Shown: piece by piece, positions 14,272-24,750 of the stretch
How the letters are laid out: each line of letters opens with the position of its first letter
Numbering within the stretch: position 1 is the first letter of the stretch
Assembly (NCBI RefSeq): GCF_900453205.1
Contig: NZ_UGQU01000002.1
Location: 372,001 to 436,000 of the forward strand
Length of the DNA stretch: 64,000 bases
DNA from: Moraxella lacunata
GTDB taxonomy: Bacteria; Pseudomonadota; Gammaproteobacteria; Pseudomonadales; Moraxellaceae
Direction: 5' to 3'
The notes under the pieces: generated by a model
The model's database searches: none
What the model was told of the DNA's origin: nothing
The model's input: the letters and a program-made list of their open reading frames with translations, nothing else
Position numbers and translations under genes: made by a program

Positions 14272-14294
14272 CCATGTTATTTGTAAGGAAAAAC

Positions 14295-15248
14295 ATGGAC
14301 ACCCTACGCCCCACCGACCTAAAAACCATTTTACATTCCAAACGTGCCAATTTGTATTATTTAGAACATTGCCGAGTCATGCAAAACGACGGGCGAGTGC
14401 TGTATCTGACCGAAAGTAAAAAAGAAAATCTCTACTACAATATCCCCATTGCCAACACCACCGTGATACTACTTGGCACAGGTACGTCCATTACCCAGTC
14501 TGCGGTGCGACTCTTAGCAAGTGCAGGCGTGCTGATTGGCTTTTGTGGGGGTGGCGGCACACCTTTGTTTATGGGGAGTGAGATTGAGTGGCTGACCCCA
14601 CAATCAGAATACCGCCCCACCGAATACATTCAAGGCTGGCTGTCGTGGTGGTGGGACGATGACAAACGTCTGGCAATGGCAAAACGTTTGCAAATGGCTC
14701 GGCTTGATTTTATGAATGACGTATGGGGGCGTGATAAGGACTTGCGTGGGGCGGGGTTTGATAGTAAATGTGATGAAATCATAAGCTTACAAAATCACTA
14801 CCGTACCCAGATTTTGGGGCAAAATAGCGTATCAGACCTGCTTGCCTTAGAAGGGCGTATGACCAAAGAGCTGTATAAATTTGCTGTCAAACACACAGGT
14901 TATAAGGGATTTAGCCGTGATTATGACGGCGTGGATAAAGCCAATCAGTTTTTAAATCACGGCAATTATTTGGCATATGGCTTGGGGGCGACCACCGCTT
15001 GGGTTCTCGGCATTGCCCACGGATTTGCGGTCATGCATGGCAAAACTCGGCGTGGGGCGTTGGTGTTTGATATTGCCGACATTGTCAAGGATACAATTAT
15101 CCTGCCACTTGCCTTTATGTGTGCGTCTGATAATGCTCGTGAGCAGGAATTTCGTGAACTCTGCTTATCCTATTTTACCGATTATCACGCCCTTGATGTG
15201 ATGTTTGAGACGGTAAAGGGGCTTGCTCTAAACAAGGAATTTGGATAA
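14295..15248 (+). CDS. cas1: Type I-F CRISPR integrase Cas1
   Basis: With Cas2-3 this protein integrates new spacers into the array. The start at 14295 (MDTLRPTDLK) is preferred over an ATG 21 bp upstream because AAGGAAAA precedes it. The 317-residue product has the I-F Cas1 N-terminus (ILHSKRANLYYLEH) and the catalytic Glu (LALEGRMTKEL), His (IAHGFAVMHG) and Asp (VFDIADIVKD). Length is normal and the gene looks intact. The cas2-3 start follows 9 bp after its stop. Confidence 0.96.
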   Translation: MDTLRPTDLKTILHSKRANLYYLEHCRVMQNDGRVLYLTESKKENLYYNIPIANTTVILLGTGTSITQSAVRLLASAGVLIGFCGGGGTPLFMGSEIEWLTPQSEYRPTEYIQGWLSWWWDDDKRLAMAKRLQMARLDFMNDVWGRDKDLRGAGFDSKCDEIISLQNHYRTQILGQNSVSDLLALEGRMTKELYKFAVKHTGYKGFSRDYDGVDKANQFLNHGNYLAYGLGATTAWVLGIAHGFAVMHGKTRRGALVFDIADIVKDTIILPLAFMCASDNAREQEFRELCLSYFTDYHALDVMFETVKGLALNKEFG

Positions 15249-15257
15249 GGATTTTGC

Positions 15258-18200
15258 ATGATTGTAACCTTTATTTCTAAATGCCAGAAAAAAGCCATTA
15301 AACGCACTCGTAAGATTTTGGACGCTTTTGCAAGTCGCATTGGCGACAACGTTTGGCAAACCAACATCACCGAGATTGGTCTAAAAACGGTGTACGAGCT
15401 CTTAAAATCCACCGCCAGTAAATCCACCGCAGTTGCCTGCCACCGTATCGCCACTCGCCACCGCACTGAGCTTGTTTGGGTGGTGGGGAATAAATCCAAA
15501 TTTAACACCACAGGGGGCGTAGCCGTGAATCGTACCAGACGTTCTATTTTGCACCATGATTGGGAGAATAACTGGCAGTTTTTGGACGGCATTGGCATCA
15601 TCGCCACATTGGCAGGACTGCTCCATGACATCGGCAAATCCACGATAGGCTTTCAAAATAAACTCTTTGCCACCACCAACATCTGTGACCCCTACCGCCA
15701 CGAATGGGTGTCGTTAAAACTCATCGTCTGGCTGGTGGGCGACTGCACGAGCGACCAAGCAGTATTTGAACGCCTCGCTCATGTTGATGAGTATCTGGCA
15801 GATAAGGCATTGCCGGCTTTGTCCGATTTTGGCACGCCAGATAAAGCGGATATGGGTAAGCTACCACCTTTAACCAAATGGATTATTTGGCTTGTTGTAA
15901 CACATCATCGTCTGCCACTGCACACGCTTATTATTTTAAAAAGCCTGAAATGTATAGCACACCAAACTGTTTGTCAGGCGATGTGCAAAGTTATTTGGCA
16001 AGTCTAGAAGCCATAGAGCATTGGGTGCTTAATAAGGGCAATAAGGCGGACGACTTTTTTAGCTTTAAACAGTTTATTTTGCACAACAAACTGTGGCAAA
16101 AACAGCTCAAACGCTACGCCACAAAAGCCCAAAATTCGCCCTATCTGCAAACCCTTATCAAGCAATACCCCCAAGCGGTATCCGACCCATTTTTACTGCA
16201 TTTATCACGGCTATCACTCATGACCGCTGACCATAATTATTCTGGTTTAAAAAAAGATGATAAAAAACGGCATCAAGGAAAATTTGACCCAAACCTTATT
16301 GCCAATACCATTAAAATTGATGATAAAAACCAAATCACACAAACACAAGCCAAGCAAACACAAATCAAACAAACATTAGACGAGCATTTATTAGGCGTGG
16401 CACAATTTAGTGCTCAATTTGTGCGGATTTTGCCAACGTTGCATGAAAATTTGCCAACCCTACAAAACCACAATCCTTTATTGCAAAATACCGATACGGA
16501 CGGATTTTTGTGGCAAAATACCGCCTTTAAAACCGCTTTAAAACACCGTGAAGCGACCGATACACACGGCTTTTTTGGGATAAATATGGCAAGCACAGGC
16601 AAAGGCAAAACGCTTGCCAATGCTCGTATCATGTACGCCTTGACCGACCCTAATAAGGGGGGGCAAGGCTTACTGTGGCGTTGGGGCTTCGTGTTTTGAC
16701 CTTACAAACAGGGCAAAGCCTACGCCAAAAACTGGCTTTGACGGATAAAGAGCTTGCCGTATTGGTGGGCGGTCTTGCACAAAAACAGCTTTTTGAGTTG
16801 CAAAACAGCGACAATGACACCGAGATAGGCTCGGATACAGGCAGTGAGTCCGCCCAAAGATTGCTAGATGAATTTGTGGATAGCGACATTGACACGGATT
16901 TGGGCGAGCTAAATCTTGGCACGCTCGTAGAGAGCGACCACGCCAAACGCCTGATAGCCTCCCCTGTGGCAGTCTGCACCATAGACCACCTAATGCAAGC
17001 CAGCGAGTGCAAGCGTGGTGGGCGGTATATCGTACCGATGTTACGGCTGTTTAGTAGTGATGTGATTTTTGATGAGCCTGATGATTTTGACCAAAACGAC
17101 CTGCCTGCCTTGTCTCGCCTCGTGCATTTGGCAGGAATGTTTGGTTCTCGGGTGATGTTGTCGTCTGCGACATTACCCCCTGATTTGGTGGCAGGGCTGT
17201 TTAAGGCGTATCAGAGCGGACGTATGATTTATAACGCTAATTTTGGCAAACCTACCCCAAAGGTGGTGTGCGCGTGGTTTGATGAAAATGTGAGCAAAGC
17301 GGTACAAGTGGCAGATGATTTTGATGCTTATCATGAGCAGTTTATTAGGGGGCGTGTCAAGCATTTAAATGACAATGCTGTGCGTCATTGGGGCGAGATT
17401 TTGCTGATTGATGAGATGGATAATGAAGACGATGACGAGTTTTATAAAGACATGGCAGGCGTGCTGTTTGACAAAGCCAAAGCCTTGCACGACTTACATC
17501 ACACCCAAATTCATGGTAAGACGGTAAGTATTGGGCTTATTCGCATGGCAAACATCAATCCACTCATCGGTATCGCCAAAGCCATGCACGAGACGGGCGA
17601 CATGGCAGGGTTTGACGGTTGTCAATTTTATTTGGCATGCTATCATGCAAGACAAGTGCTTATTTTGCGAAATCAGCTGGAAGTGCGACTTGATAAACTC
17701 CTAAATCGCCATGACCCAAAGGCTCTTGCCAACAATCCTGATATTATAGACAACCTTGCCAAGCACCCCGACAAAACGCACCACATCTTTATGGTACTTG
17801 CCACGCCTGTGGCGGAAGTGGGGCGAGACCATGATTATGATTGGGCGATGATTGAGCCAAGCTCCATGAGGTCTATCATACAAACAGCAGGGCGAGTGTG
17901 GCGACATCGCACCGATAAGGTGGCTTTTGCTCCCAATATTGCCATTTGGAATAAAAATATCAGGGCGTTAAAGGATAAAGACATTGCTTTTTGCCGACCG
18001 GGATTTGAAAGCGAGCGTTTTCCCCTTGCCACGCACCAAGTGAGCAAACTTATCAAACAGGCAGATTATGAACGCATTTCATCGGTCGCTCGGATTAGCA
18101 AATCCGCTACGCCAGAACCCAAAAAGAATCTGGCGGATTTAGAACACGCCGTCATGCAGGATTTGATGAACAATGATGACATCAATGTGGTCAATGCTTA

Positions 18201-18582
18201 TTATGAGCCAGATACCGCCAACCGTCTGCACGTTCATTTGTCTTGTCTGACACCATTTCGCCAAAGTCAAAAGCAGACAGATTTTATCGTCAATCCGCTT
18301 GATAACACCCTAAATATCTCGTCCTATGACAGCGTAGAGATGCACGGTGTGGCGAACGCCAAAACAACCCATGAGATTATCCCAAAGGCGATAACGTGCC
18401 AAAATCCCAATCTTGATACATGGCTGACCGCCAATCTATCGGACGAGCTTGCCAAGCTTAGGGAGTATTATCCAGACACGTCTGTCAATACGCTCATCAT
18501 TCGCTTTTGCGTGCTGACCATTCGTGATGATTATCATAACGGCTATTATTTTGATGAGCGGTTTGGGGTGTATGAGCGGTAA
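15258..18582 (+). pseudogene. cas3: Type I-F Cas2-Cas3 fusion, split by two frameshifts
   Basis: The I-F fusion joins an adaptation domain (Cas2, about residues 1-95) to the HD nuclease and SF2 helicase that destroy targets. Frame 1 (from 15258) carries Cas2 and the HD motif LLHDIGKS and reaches VTHHRLP. Near 15925 the homologous frame changes, as if one base were missing (PL-AHAYYFKK). Frame 2 holds Walker A, ASTGKGKT, and ends after a G7 run at 16657-16663. The right continuation, ARLTVALGLRVLTLQTGQ, is in frame 3, which would be read with five or eight Gs. Frame 3 has VIFDEPDDF (Walker B), SSATLPP and a TAGRVWRHR motif. Joined length is about 1,110 residues, normal. If the errors are real, interference and adaptation are lost while Cascade remains. 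Confidence 0.92.
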
Positions 18583-18591
18583 CGTGGTAAA

Positions 18592-18721
18592 TACAGCTAA
18601 CAAAATTGAATTTTACTACACAAGCCGTTCGCCTTAAGCTTGCCTGCGGGTCAGTTTCCGTTAGGTTTCCCAAGCTCACCACGAACGAAAAACCGTAGCA
18701 CTTTTCATTTTGTAGAGTGTA
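18592..18721. mobile_element. About 130-bp MITE between cas2-3 and csy1
   Basis: Inverted ends: TACAGCTAACAAAATTGAAT at the left and, inward from the right, TACACTCTACAAAATGAAAA. The centre is a G+C-rich palindrome with GCCTGCGGGT and AAGCTCACCACGAACG, shared with the MITEs at 23322 and 56779. A second copy in opposite orientation is at 24618-24750. Its right edge coincides with the point where the adjacent CRISPR-like repeat loses its last four bases. Confidence 0.75.
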
Positions 18722-18791
18722 AGTCATCTATGCGATGTGGAATGTGTATTTAACATACATAATTTTCTAAGTCATCTTTGCGATGAACTTT
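18720..18791 (-). ncRNA. CRISPR-like mini-unit, candidate Cas-regulating guide RNA (repeat-20 nt-repeat)
   Basis: On the minus strand a degenerate I-F repeat (18791-18764) keeps the hairpin CATCGCAAAGATG and the full 8-nt handle CTTAGAAA. It is followed by a 20-nt spacer (18763-18744) and a second repeat (18743-18720) identical to the array repeat except that its last four bases are missing. Array spacers are 32 nt, so this unit is atypical. A promoter at 18794-18822 would start the RNA at the first repeat. The spacer agrees with 14 of 20 positions of the site 18831-18850, which begins after a CC PAM and contains the csy1 -10 box. Mismatches are at 6, 8, 12, 17, 18 and 20. A remnant of a second decayed array is the alternative. 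Confidence 0.6.
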
Positions 18792-18793
18792 AT

Positions 18794-18822
18794 ATTATAC
18801 TTGATTTATTTATCAATAACAA
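18794..18822 (-). promoter_or_regulatory. Probable promoter of the CRISPR-like guide RNA
   Basis: On the minus strand TTGTTA (18822-18817), 17-bp spacer, perfect TATAAT (18799-18794). Initiation about 7 nt later falls at the start of the repeat hairpin, giving an RNA with almost no leader. Confidence 0.6.
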
Positions 18823-18830
18823 AATTTCAC

Positions 18831-18856
18831 ATACATTTTACAAATATAATGGTTGA
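18831..18856 (+). promoter_or_regulatory. csy operon -10 region and candidate Cascade target site
   Basis: A perfect TATAAT at 18845-18850 lies about 57 bp before the csy1 ATG. No good -35 is visible. GG at 18851-18852 gives a CC PAM on the minus strand. The 20 bases read from there on the minus strand match the candidate guide spacer at positions 1-5, 7, 9-11, 13-16 and 19. Binding of the Csy complex would cover the -10 box. Confidence 0.55.
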
Positions 18857-18906
18857 AATCAATTTTTAAATATGCTTTAATACCCTAAAAATAACAAGGA
18901 AATCCC

Positions 18907-20304
18907 ATGACGGCACCGACCCCAAACACCAATTTGACAACCGATGACATCAAGCGAGCGATTGATGAGTTTTTGCTCGCTCAATTTCACAAAAAAGCCG
19001 ACAAAGAGCTAAAACAGCTTGCCAAAGCCACAGAAGCAGGCGAACCCACCAAAATCGCCCAAGCCCAAGAAGCACTTGCCCCCATACAAGCCAAATACCA
19101 AAAACAAACATGGCTTAGCGATGCCAAAAAAATGGCAACTCAGCTAAAATTTGGCACGCACATCTCAAAAGGCGTACACCCCGATGCCAAAGGCGACAAC
19201 ATCACCGCCAACGCCACACCCTGCCCATTTGTCGGCACGCACACCCTTGATACACCAAGCCTTGATGCCAACGGCAACGCTGCTGCCCTGCCACTGGCGA
19301 GCTTTTTTGATTGGCAAGTGGGCGACATCAAAATAAGACAGCTTATCACCGACAAACACCCTGCCTTGGTGGGGGCATTTCATGATGACGTGGCGGTTTG
19401 TGATGACTATCGGCAGATTTTTTATGACACGCTCACAGGCAAAAAGGACGTACCTGCCACGCACGAACGCAACAAACAGCTTTTTTGGGCATTGCCTGAT
19501 GATGAATATCATCTCATCATACCGCTGTTTGCGTCCGCTCTTAGCCATGATGTTTTTCATAAAATCAATCACTTACGCTATTCAGACGCCAACAAACAAG
19601 CCCGAGACAACCGCTTTAAGGGCAAAGAGACGACCGCTTATGTGTCGGTTGTGGATTTGGCAACGATACAGCTTGGTGGTACAAAGCCCCAAAACATCTC
19701 TCAACTTGTCAGCCGTCAAGGGGGTAAAACCTATCTTTTACCGTCCTACCCACCCACCTTTACAGGCAGTAGCGATTTGTCTTTTGCCAAGACAGCCAAG
19801 ACGATTTTTGGCAAGTCGCTAGCCTATGTGGTCAAAGATGATATGGACGAGCTTTTTAAACTGCTTGTTCGTGTCAATAAAAACCACAAAAACACCATAG
19901 ACGTTCGCACCGCTCGTGATGACATTTTGCAAAATATTATCTTAAGCGTACTACAAGTCGCCCATGCTATCCGTCAGAAAGAAGCAGGCTGGTCAAAGGC
20001 TTATAAACTTGCCTTGCACCAAAAATACTGGCTAGACCCAAAGCGTGGCGAGCTTGACGGCGAAGACAAATTTAAAAGAAATCATGAGAGCAAAAACTGG
20101 CAAAACGATGTACAAAAAGATTTTGCCCATTGGATTCAAAACGAGCTTGAAAAACGCTTGGCTTATTATCAGCAAGAGCAAAAAAAGAAAAACAAGCAAG
20201 CGGTAGAGCTAGAATTTGGACGGGCGGAGTTTGAGCATTGGCAAAAAGAATTTAAAGACACCTTTAACGCAAGTTTGCGTTTGGGGCAAGGAGTATTGAC
20301 ATGA
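18907..20304 (+). CDS. csy1: Type I-F Cascade subunit Csy1 (Cas8f)
   Basis: The 465-residue large subunit sits at the foot of the Csy complex, where it takes part in PAM recognition with Csy2 and holds the crRNA handle. It shows the usual helical N-terminus (TTDDIKRAIDEFLLAQF) and a family-typical length. ACAAGGAAAT precedes the ATG. Its stop overlaps the csy2 start (ATGA), so the csy1-csy4 genes form one translationally coupled operon. No damage is visible, unlike in cas2-3. Confidence 0.93.
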   Translation: MTAPTPNTNLTTDDIKRAIDEFLLAQFHKKADKELKQLAKATEAGEPTKIAQAQEALAPIQAKYQKQTWLSDAKKMATQLKFGTHISKGVHPDAKGDNITANATPCPFVGTHTLDTPSLDANGNAAALPLASFFDWQVGDIKIRQLITDKHPALVGAFHDDVAVCDDYRQIFYDTLTGKKDVPATHERNKQLFWALPDDEYHLIIPLFASALSHDVFHKINHLRYSDANKQARDNRFKGKETTAYVSVVDLATIQLGGTKPQNISQLVSRQGGKTYLLPSYPPTFTGSSDLSFAKTAKTIFGKSLAYVVKDDMDELFKLLVRVNKNHKNTIDVRTARDDILQNIILSVLQVAHAIRQKEAGWSKAYKLALHQKYWLDPKRGELDGEDKFKRNHESKNWQNDVQKDFAHWIQNELEKRLAYYQQEQKKKNKQAVELEFGRAEFEHWQKEFKDTFNASLRLGQGVLT

Positions 20305-21236
20305 GTTTTATTTATCCACAGCATTCGCTGGTCGGCTATGTTCGCCTTGACCGTCTCAAAATCATCAATGCCAATGCCGTCTCCGCTCCCTTGACTTATG
20401 GCTTTCCTGCCTTGACAGGATTTGTTGGGGCAACGCACAGCCTAAGCCGTAAAGTATCAAGCCTTATGGGTTTTGAAAATATTCGCTTGGACGGTGTGCT
20501 GGTGGCGTGTTTTGATTGCCAAGTTCAAACTTACCAAGAAGGCTATAAGGACAAAACCTTCGCCCAAACTCGCAACCCCATTTTAAAATCAGGCAAAACC
20601 GCCCCAATCATCGAAGAAGGGCGTTGTCATCTCACCATCTCTTTACTCATCGGTGTGTATAAAGACAGCGTGCAGGATTTGACCGAAGATGAAGCAAATC
20701 AGCTCACCCAAAACGTGCAAGAATTTGCCCTATCCCAACGCTGGGCAGGCGGCAGTCTAACAGGCATGAGTGGCGTGCATTTTGTCAAAAAAGACGACAT
20801 CGATGAGCAAAAATCTCGCCTATGTCCTGCCTTTATCATCACGTCCGCCCATGATGAGCTTGGCAAGATTACCCAAGAATTACAAGAGCAAAATCCCAAT
20901 GCCACCGCCCTAGATGCACTCATTGAGACGGCGGTGTTGCACCACACACCGCCCACGGATAGCCAGTCTGAGTGGACGACTCATTCGGTCAAAAAACAAC
21001 GTGGCTGGCTTGTGCCTATGCCTGTGGGCTTTGTTGGTATCTCGGACAAATACAACAAGGGGCAGATGAGCAACGCTCGCTCGGACGAGTACCCTGCTCA
21101 GTTTGTGGAAGCGGTATATTCGCTTGGCAAGTGGCGATTTGCCAATCGCATAGATGATCTAGATTCTGCGTTGTGGTATGGCGATTATGATGACACTTGT
21201 GATTTATATGTGATTAAGCATTCTAAATATTTGTAA
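20301..21236 (+). CDS. csy2: Type I-F Cascade subunit Csy2 (Cas5f)
   Basis: The 311-residue Cas5-like protein pairs with Csy1 at the 5' handle of the crRNA. The N-terminal RAMP strand (HSLVGYVRLDRLKIINANAV) and the segment PLTYGFPALTGFVGATHSLSR are typical for Csy2. It overlaps csy1 by 4 bp and ends 42 bp before csy3. The reading frame is intact. Confidence 0.94.
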   Translation: MSFIYPQHSLVGYVRLDRLKIINANAVSAPLTYGFPALTGFVGATHSLSRKVSSLMGFENIRLDGVLVACFDCQVQTYQEGYKDKTFAQTRNPILKSGKTAPIIEEGRCHLTISLLIGVYKDSVQDLTEDEANQLTQNVQEFALSQRWAGGSLTGMSGVHFVKKDDIDEQKSRLCPAFIITSAHDELGKITQELQEQNPNATALDALIETAVLHHTPPTDSQSEWTTHSVKKQRGWLVPMPVGFVGISDKYNKGQMSNARSDEYPAQFVEAVYSLGKWRFANRIDDLDSALWYGDYDDTCDLYVIKHSKYL

Positions 21237-21278: not shown

Positions 21279-22271
21279 ATGACCCTAAAAACCCCTTCCG
21301 TGCTTGCTTTTGAACGCAAACTTGACATCTCGGACGCAACCTTTTGGCAAACCAATGGTAAAGACAAAATGCCTGTACTTGTCCAAGAAAAGTCCGTGCG
21401 TGGCACAATCAGCAATCGCCTAAAAAACGCCATTGCCAGCGACCCTGCCAAGCTGGACTCTGAAATCCAAAAGGCAAATTTGCAAACCGTGGATGCAAGT
21501 TTTTTGGACGAGTCGTGCGACACGCTCATCACTCGCTTTACGGTCAAGGTACTGCCCTTTGACGGCAAAGCCAACGTCTGCAACGAACAAGCCTACCAAA
21601 ACGCCCTGCTTGATGTGGTGCAAGCCTACAAAGACGAACACGGATTTGATGAGCTTGCCAGACGCTATGCCTACAACATTGCCAACGCTCGCTTTTTGTG
21701 GCGAAACCGCATGGGGGCGGAGTCGGTGTCGGTGGTGGTAACGCTTGGCGATGAGTCGGTGAAATTTGCCAACGCTCGTGAATTGTCGCTCAACAATTTT
21801 GATTATCAAGATGACAAATTGGCTCGTTTGGCAAGCTGGATAAAAGGCGGACTCATGGGCGATAAATTCACCATTTTGACGGTGGAAGCTCATGCCAAAG
21901 TCGGATTTGGACAAGAAGTGTATCCGTCCCAAGAGCTGATTTTGGATACAGGCAGTAAAAAAAGCAAGGTGCTTTATCGTGTGGGCGACACGAGCCAAAA
22001 CCGTGCCGGTATGCACTCACAAAAGGTCAGTAACGCCATTCGTACGATTGATGATTGGTATCCAAATGCCGAGTTTCCTGTGGCGACCGAGCCTTATGGA
22101 GCGGTTACGACCCTTGGCACGGCATTTCGTCAGCCCAAAGAAAAGCAGGACTTTTATAGCTTGTTTGACGGCTGGGTTAAAGACGGCAAAATCCCAAGTG
22201 ACAACGAGCAACACTACGTCATGGGCGTATTAATTCGTGGTGGCGTGTTTGGCGAAAGCGGTAAGGAATGA
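21279..22271 (+). CDS. csy3: Type I-F Cascade backbone subunit Csy3 (Cas7f)
   Basis: Six copies of this 330-residue RNA-binding protein form the spiral backbone along the crRNA spacer. It begins TLKTPSVLAFERKLDISDA, matching the family start, and holds RYAYNIANARFLWRNR, a conserved Csy3 stretch. A clear AAAGGAAA lies before the ATG. Its TGA overlaps the ATG of csy4. Confidence 0.95.
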   Translation: MTLKTPSVLAFERKLDISDATFWQTNGKDKMPVLVQEKSVRGTISNRLKNAIASDPAKLDSEIQKANLQTVDASFLDESCDTLITRFTVKVLPFDGKANVCNEQAYQNALLDVVQAYKDEHGFDELARRYAYNIANARFLWRNRMGAESVSVVVTLGDESVKFANARELSLNNFDYQDDKLARLASWIKGGLMGDKFTILTVEAHAKVGFGQEVYPSQELILDTGSKKSKVLYRVGDTSQNRAGMHSQKVSNAIRTIDDWYPNAEFPVATEPYGAVTTLGTAFRQPKEKQDFYSLFDGWVKDGKIPSDNEQHYVMGVLIRGGVFGESGKE

Positions 22272-22873
22272 GCATGGTTTATCAAGAAATTACCCTAATC
22301 CCAAACGATGACATACCGCCCTATGCGATATGGAGCAAGCTCTACAACCAGCTTCATATCGCTCTTGCGGACGTGGCAAATGGGCATGGCATCAATACCA
22401 TTGGCGTAGCATTCCCTGATTATCGCTACAGCGAGCAGTACGACAAAGGCACGCTCGGCAGTCGCTTGCGGGTGTTTGCCCCAAGTCGTGATGAGCTTGA
22501 TAAGCTCGATTTACCCCTACGCCTGTCTCGCCTGTCTGATTATGTACATATGAAAGCGATAGCGGATGTTGGCGAGCGAGCGACAGGCTATGTGGTGGTG
22601 GAGCGTTATCGCCATTATGACTTGGGCAAGCAGGTGGAGCGGTTTGCTGATTTTAAAAATTTGACAGTGGAGCAGGCGTTGGAGCATTGCCTTGCCCACA
22701 AGAAAAAAGCCAAAAATTACCCCTTTGTCCGCCTAAAAAGCGAGACCAACCAACGGCAGTATCATCTGCATATCCGCCAATATACGGTCGCCAAGCCACA
22801 AACGGGGGTGTTTAACACCTATGGCATTACTAACATTAATGACGAGACCAAGGCAAGCGTTCCGCATTGGTGA
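22268..22873 (+). CDS. cas6f: Type I-F crRNA endoribonuclease Csy4 (Cas6f)
   Basis: The 201-residue enzyme cuts the array transcript at the repeat hairpin and stays on the 3' end of the crRNA. The N-terminal His30 (YNQLHIAL) sits where the catalytic His of characterised Csy4 lies, and a basic helix for hairpin binding is present near residues 115-160. The C-terminus ends with the family pattern NTYGI. It starts inside the csy3 stop (ATGA) and is followed by the CRISPR leader. Confidence 0.94.
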   Translation: MSMVYQEITLIPNDDIPPYAIWSKLYNQLHIALADVANGHGINTIGVAFPDYRYSEQYDKGTLGSRLRVFAPSRDELDKLDLPLRLSRLSDYVHMKAIADVGERATGYVVVERYRHYDLGKQVERFADFKNLTVEQALEHCLAHKKKAKNYPFVRLKSETNQRQYHLHIRQYTVAKPQTGVFNTYGITNINDETKASVPHW

Positions 22874-23050: not shown

Positions 23051-23318
23051 ATTCCACATCGCATAGATGACTTAGAAAAAGCACACCTGCGATGATAGCT
23101 ATCCACATGAATTCCACATCGCATAGATGACTTAGAAACAAATTTGTTTGTTGCCATGCAAGGCAATCATATTCCACATCGCATAGATGACTTAGAAATC
23201 CTGATGGTTATATTTGGCTCGACCACCATCATTCCACATCGCATAGATGACTTAGAAAGAGCAAATCTACAACAGCATAACCAAGGGCAAATTCCACATC
23301 GCATAGATGACTTAGAAA
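23051..23318 (+). CRISPR. Type I-F CRISPR array, five repeats and four spacers
   Basis: Five identical 28-bp repeats start at 23051, 23111, 23171, 23231 and 23291, an exact 60-bp period with 32-bp spacers. Each repeat begins ATTCCACATCGC and ends GATGACTTAGAAA. CATC and GATG form the Csy4 hairpin, with the 8-nt handle CTTAGAAA. There is no repeat degeneration at the distal end. The array stops at 23318; 3 bp later a MITE begins, so older spacers may have been lost there. Confidence 0.97.
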
Positions 23319-23321
23319 TTT

Positions 23322-23454
23322 GGTAGTGGTCTAAAAAGTATGCTGAACTAGGTTTTCCGTTCGCCCTGAGCCTGCCTGCGGGTAGGAAAACCGTTAGGTT
23401 TCCCAAGCTCACCACGAACGGTTTTCTTTGTAGCATACTTTTTGAACCAGAGCC
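23322..23454. mobile_element. 133-bp IS1-derived MITE at the end of the CRISPR array
   Basis: Its ends, GGTAGTGGTCTAAAAAGT and (inward from the right) GGCTCTGGTTCAAAAAGT, both continue ATGCT and nearly equal the IS1-family ends at 3914-4706. It has no gene. The inside is a palindrome with GGTTTTCCGTTCG and CACCACGAACGG. No 8-bp target duplication is seen: the left neighbour is the CRISPR repeat plus TTT, the right neighbour is the start of the duplicated phosphatase segment. Confidence 0.85.
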
Positions 23455-24541: not shown

Positions 24542-24617
24542 TGGGCTAAAAGTTATTTGGTTGGGTTGTCTTGGGGTTATCACCATGGCTTGTCTTGATA
24601 AATGAACTGATGATACA

Positions 24618-24750
24618 TACACTCTACAAAATGAAAAAGTGCTACGGTTTTTCGTTCGTGGTGAGCTAAGTCTAACCATGACGGAAACCGACCCGCAGGC
24701 AAGCTTGTGGCAAACGTTTTTCGTAGTAAAATTCAATTTTGTTAGCTTTA
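24618..24750. mobile_element. About 133-bp MITE upstream of gyrB
   Basis: Inverted copy of the element at 18592-18721: left end TACACTCTACAAAATGAAAA, right end (read inward) TAAAGCTAACAAAATTGAAT, with the same palindromic core (GTTCGTGGTGAGC, GCAGGCAAGC). Exact borders and target duplication are uncertain. Confidence 0.75.

Follow-up and report, generated by a model that had tools for sequence, protein, structure and literature searches.

A candidate CreR-type guide directed at the csy1 promoter of a Moraxella type I-F CRISPR-Cas locus

The type I-F locus and the mini-array between cas3 and csy1

The window, a stretch of 64,000 nucleotides from the 2.83 Mb genome of Moraxella lacunata, carries a type I-F CRISPR-Cas locus in which the gap between cas3 and csy1 holds a divergent unit of repeat, 20-nt spacer and repeat (18716-18791, minus strand). 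The features of the locus and of this mini-array are the following.

14274-15248, plus strand: cas1f (family match, TIGR03637)
15258-18582, plus strand: cas3f (cas2/3), split over three reading frames (ORF reading and family match)
18592-18721, no strand assigned: dispersed repeat of about 130 bp adjoining R2, with many copies in the genome and absent here in the same-genus genome G018
18716-18743, minus strand: R2, equal to the array repeat at positions 1-24
18744-18763, minus strand: spacer ATTATGTATGTTAAATACAC, 20 nt (direct reading)
18764-18791, minus strand: R1, AAAGTTCATCGCAAAGATGACTTAGAAA, a degenerate type I-F repeat (direct reading)
18724-18771, minus strand: predicted mature guide RNA, 48 nt, with predicted 5' end CUUAGAAA
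18794-18822, minus strand: mini-array promoter, TTGTTA (18822-18817), 17 nt, TATAAT (18799-18794); promoter scan, 10 of 12 consensus bases
18907-20304, plus strand: csy1 (cas8f; family match, TIGR02564)
20301-21236, plus strand: csy2 (family match, TIGR02565)
21279-22271, plus strand: csy3 (family match, TIGR02566)
22268-22873, plus strand: csy4 (cas6f; family match, TIGR02563), the predicted guide processor
23051-23328, plus strand: CRISPR array of five repeats with 60-nt spacing (repeat search)

R1 differs from the array repeat at 6 of 28 bases, and it has a 5-bp stem (TCATC/GATGA), a 5-nt loop and an intact handle, CTTAGAAA. In R2 three of the last four bases are unlike the array repeat, at the junction with the dispersed repeat. 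Folding recovered a 4-bp core of both the R1 and the R2 hairpin, with a z-score of −2.35. The predicted guide RNA would consist of the 8-nt handle, the 20-nt spacer and a 20-nt 3' part with the hairpin; its ends assume that Csy4 cuts after repeat position 20, which we take to be the rule of I-F processing. With a 20-nt spacer and an R1 unlike the array repeat, the unit lacks the 32-nt spacer and identical repeats of a functional immunity array. The region of the unit gave no match in Rfam up to E = 1; likewise, phage records searched with the cas3-csy1 gap gave no match, and viral contigs searched with one spacer pattern gave no exact match.

All four frames from csy1 to csy4 are open and in family. 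The cas3f gene contains two frameshifts, one of them near a G7 tract (16657-16663), and its split reflects either a real loss of Cas2/3 or a sequencing error; the counterpart in the same-genus genome G002 is open over 1110 codons. The dispersed repeat has an inverted copy past the array, at 24615-24750, and the csy operon and the array are thereby bracketed; the query that revealed its copies has 37 matches in the genome in all, some of which are array repeats. In G002 the unit query gave 55 matches, almost all of them within one array-like run, whereas the array of the window has only five repeats. With so short an array, fewer competing crRNAs would favour a regulatory guide.

Spacer and target site in the window and in related genomes

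The sequence matched by the spacer lies between the mini-array promoter and csy1.

18831-18850, minus strand: target site (protospacer) ATTATATTTGTAAAATGTAT, matched to the spacer at 14 of 20 positions
18851-18852, minus strand: CC PAM, which the site follows directly (direct reading)

Spacer and site are mismatched at positions 6, 8, 12, 17, 18 and 20. The original prediction had described this match and the CC before it, as well as a minus-strand promoter leading into a degenerate repeat, a 20-nt spacer and a second repeat; direct reading, together with the promoter scan, bears out the match and the layout, the coordinates given there having been a few bases off. In Cascade structures of type I complexes every sixth base is flipped out and goes unread. 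Over positions 1-17 minus 6 and 12, spacer and site agree at 13 of 15 positions, a score that was reached within the 118-nt gap by 9 of 20,000 shuffled spacers and in 20 of 20,000 shuffled gaps. The raw 14/20 was reached by 370 and 97 of 20,000, respectively, and because of this the window's match is, on its own, good but not crushing evidence. The pair is among the poorer ones that we found, with mismatches at 8 and 17 besides the flipped bases. A pattern search of the window's own genome (N at 6, 12 and 18, at most 3 mismatches) returned the unit and the csy1 site and no other place, and the backward control returned 3 matches, hence uniqueness there is no evidence by itself.

We looked for the unit upstream of Cas8f in related genomes. 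Cas8f is matched in 9 of the 22 genomes of the genus, and the strict scan, which required four of five stem pairs, found the unit in seven of these nine (G000, G002, G018, G012, G017, G008 and G020) and no unit in the Cas8f-upstream region of G021 and G007. In the family, Cas8f is present in 74 of 348 genomes, with 78 matches, and 72 of the 78 upstream regions were examined (dropped: G054, in two pieces, G050, G101, G045 and G211). The strict scan found the unit in 28 of the 72; a relaxed scan recovered 24 of these 28 and added three, all with a perfect handle, while on reversed sequence it also gave 3 matches. No unit was thus found in 44 of the 72 regions by the strict scan, or in 41 after the relaxed one, and therefore the unit is not essential; either it is optional in the family, or some units were missed by the scan.

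R1 units were chosen by eye, as minus-strand matches followed by a second hairpin, before any target was scored, and other scan matches were passed over. Among the 29 units scored, 27 have a site of their own at 11/15 or better. The two with poor targets, namely the first unit of G337 with its spacer of the ordinary 32 nt (9/15) and that of G099 (9/15, with positions 1-9 matched), were left out of the mismatch profile. In G059 the second-best site is nearly equal (12 versus 13). At 18 of the 28 loci the site lies at most 80 nt from a cas8f start codon; these, which we refer to as CreR-type, comprise seven loci of the window's genus, nine of g15 and two of g2, with 15 distinct spacers. At the other ten (eight of the genera g2 and g3, two of g15), at least 200 nt separate the site from the nearest in-frame cas8f start.

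Across species the spacers vary, and the sites vary alongside. For instance, in G012 the spacer ATAGTGTTTTGAA pairs with the site ATAGTATTTTGTA, and in G008 the spacer ATTATTTTATTTTTATACAA pairs with ATTATATTATTATTATATTT. The 15 distinct CreR-type spacers score a mean of 13.4/15 on their own sites and 6.4 on the sites of others, and none of 100,000 permutations was as good as the own-site pairing. The own site is by choice the best in its region, which inflates the own scores, and a fairer control is the best site in each foreign region: here the mean is 8.7 and 5 of 210 comparisons reach 12 or more, compared with 14 of 15 for the own sites. Other 20-mers of the same regions reach 12/15 in 21 of 11,953 cases and 13/15 in one, whereas 12 of the 15 real spacers score at least 13/15. 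The R1 stems also vary in sequence and still pair (TCATC/GATGA, CTATC/GATAG and CTATT/AATAG are examples), with 88 of 90 pairs formed over the 18 loci, wobbles counted and partly by selection.

The mismatches between spacers and sites are not evenly spread. In the 22 distinct pairs, positions 6, 12 and 18 are mismatched in 14/22, 15/22 and 11/18, respectively, and positions 1-5 and 7 in none. Pooled, this gives 40 mismatches in 62 positions at 6/12/18 and 37 in 352 elsewhere, in pairs that were selected by total score, which hence does not favour 6 and 12. The 15 CreR-type pairs alone give 28/41 versus 27/233. In a class-level draw of 369 genomes, 32 have Cas8f, and scanning 29 regions beyond the window yielded nine units with mismatches at 6, 12 and 18 in 8, 7 and 6 of 9, although these were selected at 12/15 or better and are not an independent test. 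As judged from these pairs, the level of mismatch at 6/12/18 is that expected of unread bases. Since the mismatches cluster at the flipped-out positions, the reader would be Cascade rather than antisense pairing; natural variation alone indicates that I-F Cascade reads regulatory guides by the every-sixth-base rule of defence.

Of the 28 units (the first unit of G337 excluded), 14 have a spacer of exactly 20 nt. For eight longer spacers, 25 of 62 positions beyond 20 are matched (raw count), with runs to 22-24 in four. These natural pairs of guide and operator offer many cases in which to test how short a guide can bind without cutting.

Position of the site at the csy1 promoter

On the plus strand the PAM complement, GG, is directly followed by a −35-like box.

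18853-18881, plus strand: likely csy1 promoter, TTGAAA (18853-18858), 17 nt, TTTAAT (18876-18881), with TG at 18873-18874 (layout by eye)

The TG lies one base ahead of the −10 box, and the 54 nt from the PAM to the csy1 ATG accommodate one promoter and the csy1 ribosome-binding site. At 10 of the 18 CreR-type loci the PAM stands, by eye, beside a −35-like box that is 17 nt from a −10-like box, and at the remaining eight the PAM has no clear promoter of this spacing alongside. Of the seven CreR-type loci in the genus, all except G020, which has a distant Cas8f, show the form TTGNNN-17-TNTAAT after the PAM; the layout also follows the PAM in two further g15 loci, G300 and G338. Compared with the window, G018 is almost the same in its upstream half up to the −35 box and then diverges, yet the 17-nt distance and TTTAAT are kept.

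We also considered the TATAAT inside the site (18845-18850), which the original prediction took for the −10 box of csy1. The hexamer is real, but it is probably not the main −10: it is present in G002, G018 and G008 and missing in G012, G017 and G020 of the same genus, while the TTGNNN-17-TNTAAT layout is missing in G020 alone among the CreR-type loci of the genus, and we rejected the hexamer as the main promoter. The promoter scan lists no plus-strand promoter that uses it; TTGAAA-17-TTTAAT is itself unlisted because the scan accepts only A as the second base of a −10 box. The comparison of loci suggests that the conserved csy1 promoter is probably TTGAAA-17-TTTAAT.

The promoters of the mini-array and of csy1 diverge, and about 30 bp separate the two −35 boxes. 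The −35 box of the mini-array is 8 nt past the site in the window, and within the site in G012.

A CreR-type guide and alternative readings

CreR, described by Liu et al. (2023) as summarised in two reviews, is a crRNA-like RNA that partly matches a cas promoter and is loaded into the effector, with a proposed autorepression that responds to the load of crRNAs and to anti-CRISPRs (PMC12737573, PMC13131331). According to these reviews, CreR has been reported for types I-B, I-E and V-A (PMC13131331) and is widespread in type I and V-A (PMC12737573). Our unit shares the arrangement: its repeat-like units adjoin the cas operon outside the array, its spacer is partly complementary to the promoter of that operon, with the PAM of the subtype, and no toxin gene lies between. 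It differs in belonging to type I-F, where PMC13131331 names I-B, I-E and V-A, in its 20-nt guide and in a PAM that adjoins the −35 box. A literature search, exclusive of the full texts of Liu 2023 and Shmakov 2023, gave no Moraxella unit of the CreR kind among the matches listed.

Standalone-repeat mini-arrays with two repeat-like units and a spacer that partly matches cas promoters, above all that of cas8, have reportedly been described by Shmakov et al. in 2023, and one I-F1 mini-array is said to have been tested there as a regulatory guide. The mismatch spacing and covariation measured here may also be found in that work. Phage Racr solitary repeats are a further likeness, as mimics of the I-F repeat that are processed by Cas6f, but they are phage-borne and have no promoter-targeting spacer, according to PMC10651486.

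From the anatomy of the unit, its PAM, the covariation, the 6-nt spacing of mismatches and the promoter geometry, all of them read from sequence, the best explanation is very probably a CreR-type guide for Cas autorepression. The cross-species covariation and the mismatch spacing lend strong support to the core of the original prediction, a guide that brings the Csy complex to the csy promoter. Guide processing, binding, repression and anti-CRISPR sensing we infer, the direction of the effect and the sensing by analogy with published systems. The crRNA-like guide would be transcribed away from csy1, and Csy4 would cut the transcript to an RNA of about 48 nt with the 20-nt spacer. The Csy complex loaded with this guide would bind the CC-flanked site. 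As this site lies immediately ahead of the −35 box of csy1, the complex would face and cover that box with its PAM-reading end (Cas8f/Cas5f). RNA polymerase would thereby be kept off, and the Csy complex would limit its own synthesis. When free Csy complex becomes scarce, through competing crRNAs or anti-CRISPRs, csy transcription would rise. The position of the site beside the −35 box amounts to a precise prediction of the footprint. Should the feedback prove real, cas expression in these bacteria would go up when anti-CRISPRs take Cascade away, and such units could be used in CRISPR tools for self-limiting expression.

As PMC7296934 describes, a type I-F1 Cascade from Aggregatibacter whose spacer had 20 nt (−12) bound its target and opened an R-loop, and did not trigger Cas2/3. 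By analogy, a guide of 20 nt is consistent with a complex that binds without cleavage by Cas2/3, and guide length or mismatch seems to keep the R-loop short at these loci. As the pairing would stop at about 20 nt, Cas2/3 would not be called in and the locus would be left uncut.

As the site lies between the two −35 boxes, it is conceivable, if rather doubtful, that the loaded complex closes both promoters and that one guide shuts csy1 and its own mini-array in a double negative loop. If so, changes in guide and operator would go hand in hand at the bases that are read and be unconstrained at every sixth, and across Gammaproteobacteria the locus would serve as nature's own record of R-loop rules.

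The closest I-F relative in the same place is the CreTA of Acinetobacter, an antitoxin guide that silences a toxin RNA, creT, and makes the cell dependent on the Csy complex. It shares the cas3-csy1 gap, the divergent mini-array layout, the 20-nt spacer, the CC PAM and a partial match, with mismatches at 6, 11 and 18, but its target drives a toxin RNA and not csy1 (PMC10097628, as far as described there). Haloarchaeal CreTA is similar in that the first repeat is more diverged and keeps the handle and the second loses it, as in R1 and R2; it is archaeal, and its guide silences a toxin RNA, according to PMC9458426. The ten loci with at least 200 nt between site and cas8f start would have room for a toxin gene. 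In the window the 54 nt from PAM to ATG are taken up by a single promoter plus the ribosome-binding site of csy1, which leaves no space for a separate mini-ORF and a ribosome-binding site to go with it, and the guide's target drives no toxin RNA gene. A CreTA-type guide is already disfavoured by this layout, and we consider it very unlikely.

Alternatively, the unit could be what is left of an array, matching the promoter by chance. The degenerate R1, an R2 into which the dispersed repeat cuts, a match of just 14/20 and shuffled controls that reach the raw score in up to 2% of trials would all suit decay. Decay cannot, however, produce the covariation seen in 15 distinct pairs, nor mismatches spaced 6 nt apart, and when the two closest loci, G002 and G018, were examined for a decayed or unrelated spacer beside the same promoter, which the original prediction named as evidence against it, none turned up: both carry the identical, unchanged spacer. 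For the family as a whole this reading is refuted by the comparison of loci, and it is highly improbable for the unit.

The divergent promoters, with −35 boxes about 30 bp apart, could also suggest regulation that does not involve Cascade, either through an antisense RNA acting in cis or through a divergent transcript that interferes with the promoter. Plain pairing would neither spare positions 6, 12 and 18 nor keep the Csy4 hairpin and handle, and such a mechanism is extremely unlikely; the CC flank was required by the site search and hence is not independent evidence against it. An ordinary self-targeting immunity spacer, tolerated through the split cas3 of the window, is equally hard to credit, with a spacer of 20 nt, not 32, and an open frame of 1100-1127 codons at the cas3 place in G002, G018, G017, G012 and G008, which have like units and already contradict it.

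Besides the CreR-type guide itself, several loci have features of their own. In G337 (L054) a further spacer of 32 nt stands on the leader side of the unit and has no good target nearby; the unit looks like a regulatory one that acquired a spacer for immunity. In G300 (L046) and G338 (L047) the spacer-site pairs are near-perfect (19 and 20 of 20) and are located upstream of cas8f at a distance of about 410-420 nt, and another regulated gene may lie in this interval. G002 (L069) and G018 (L070) are 88-93% identical in cas1, cas3, csy2 and csy3, with csy1 at 56% and csy4 at 75%. Judging by these alignments, csy1 has apparently been swapped, with one edge of the exchange just past the −35 box and with guide and site left intact.
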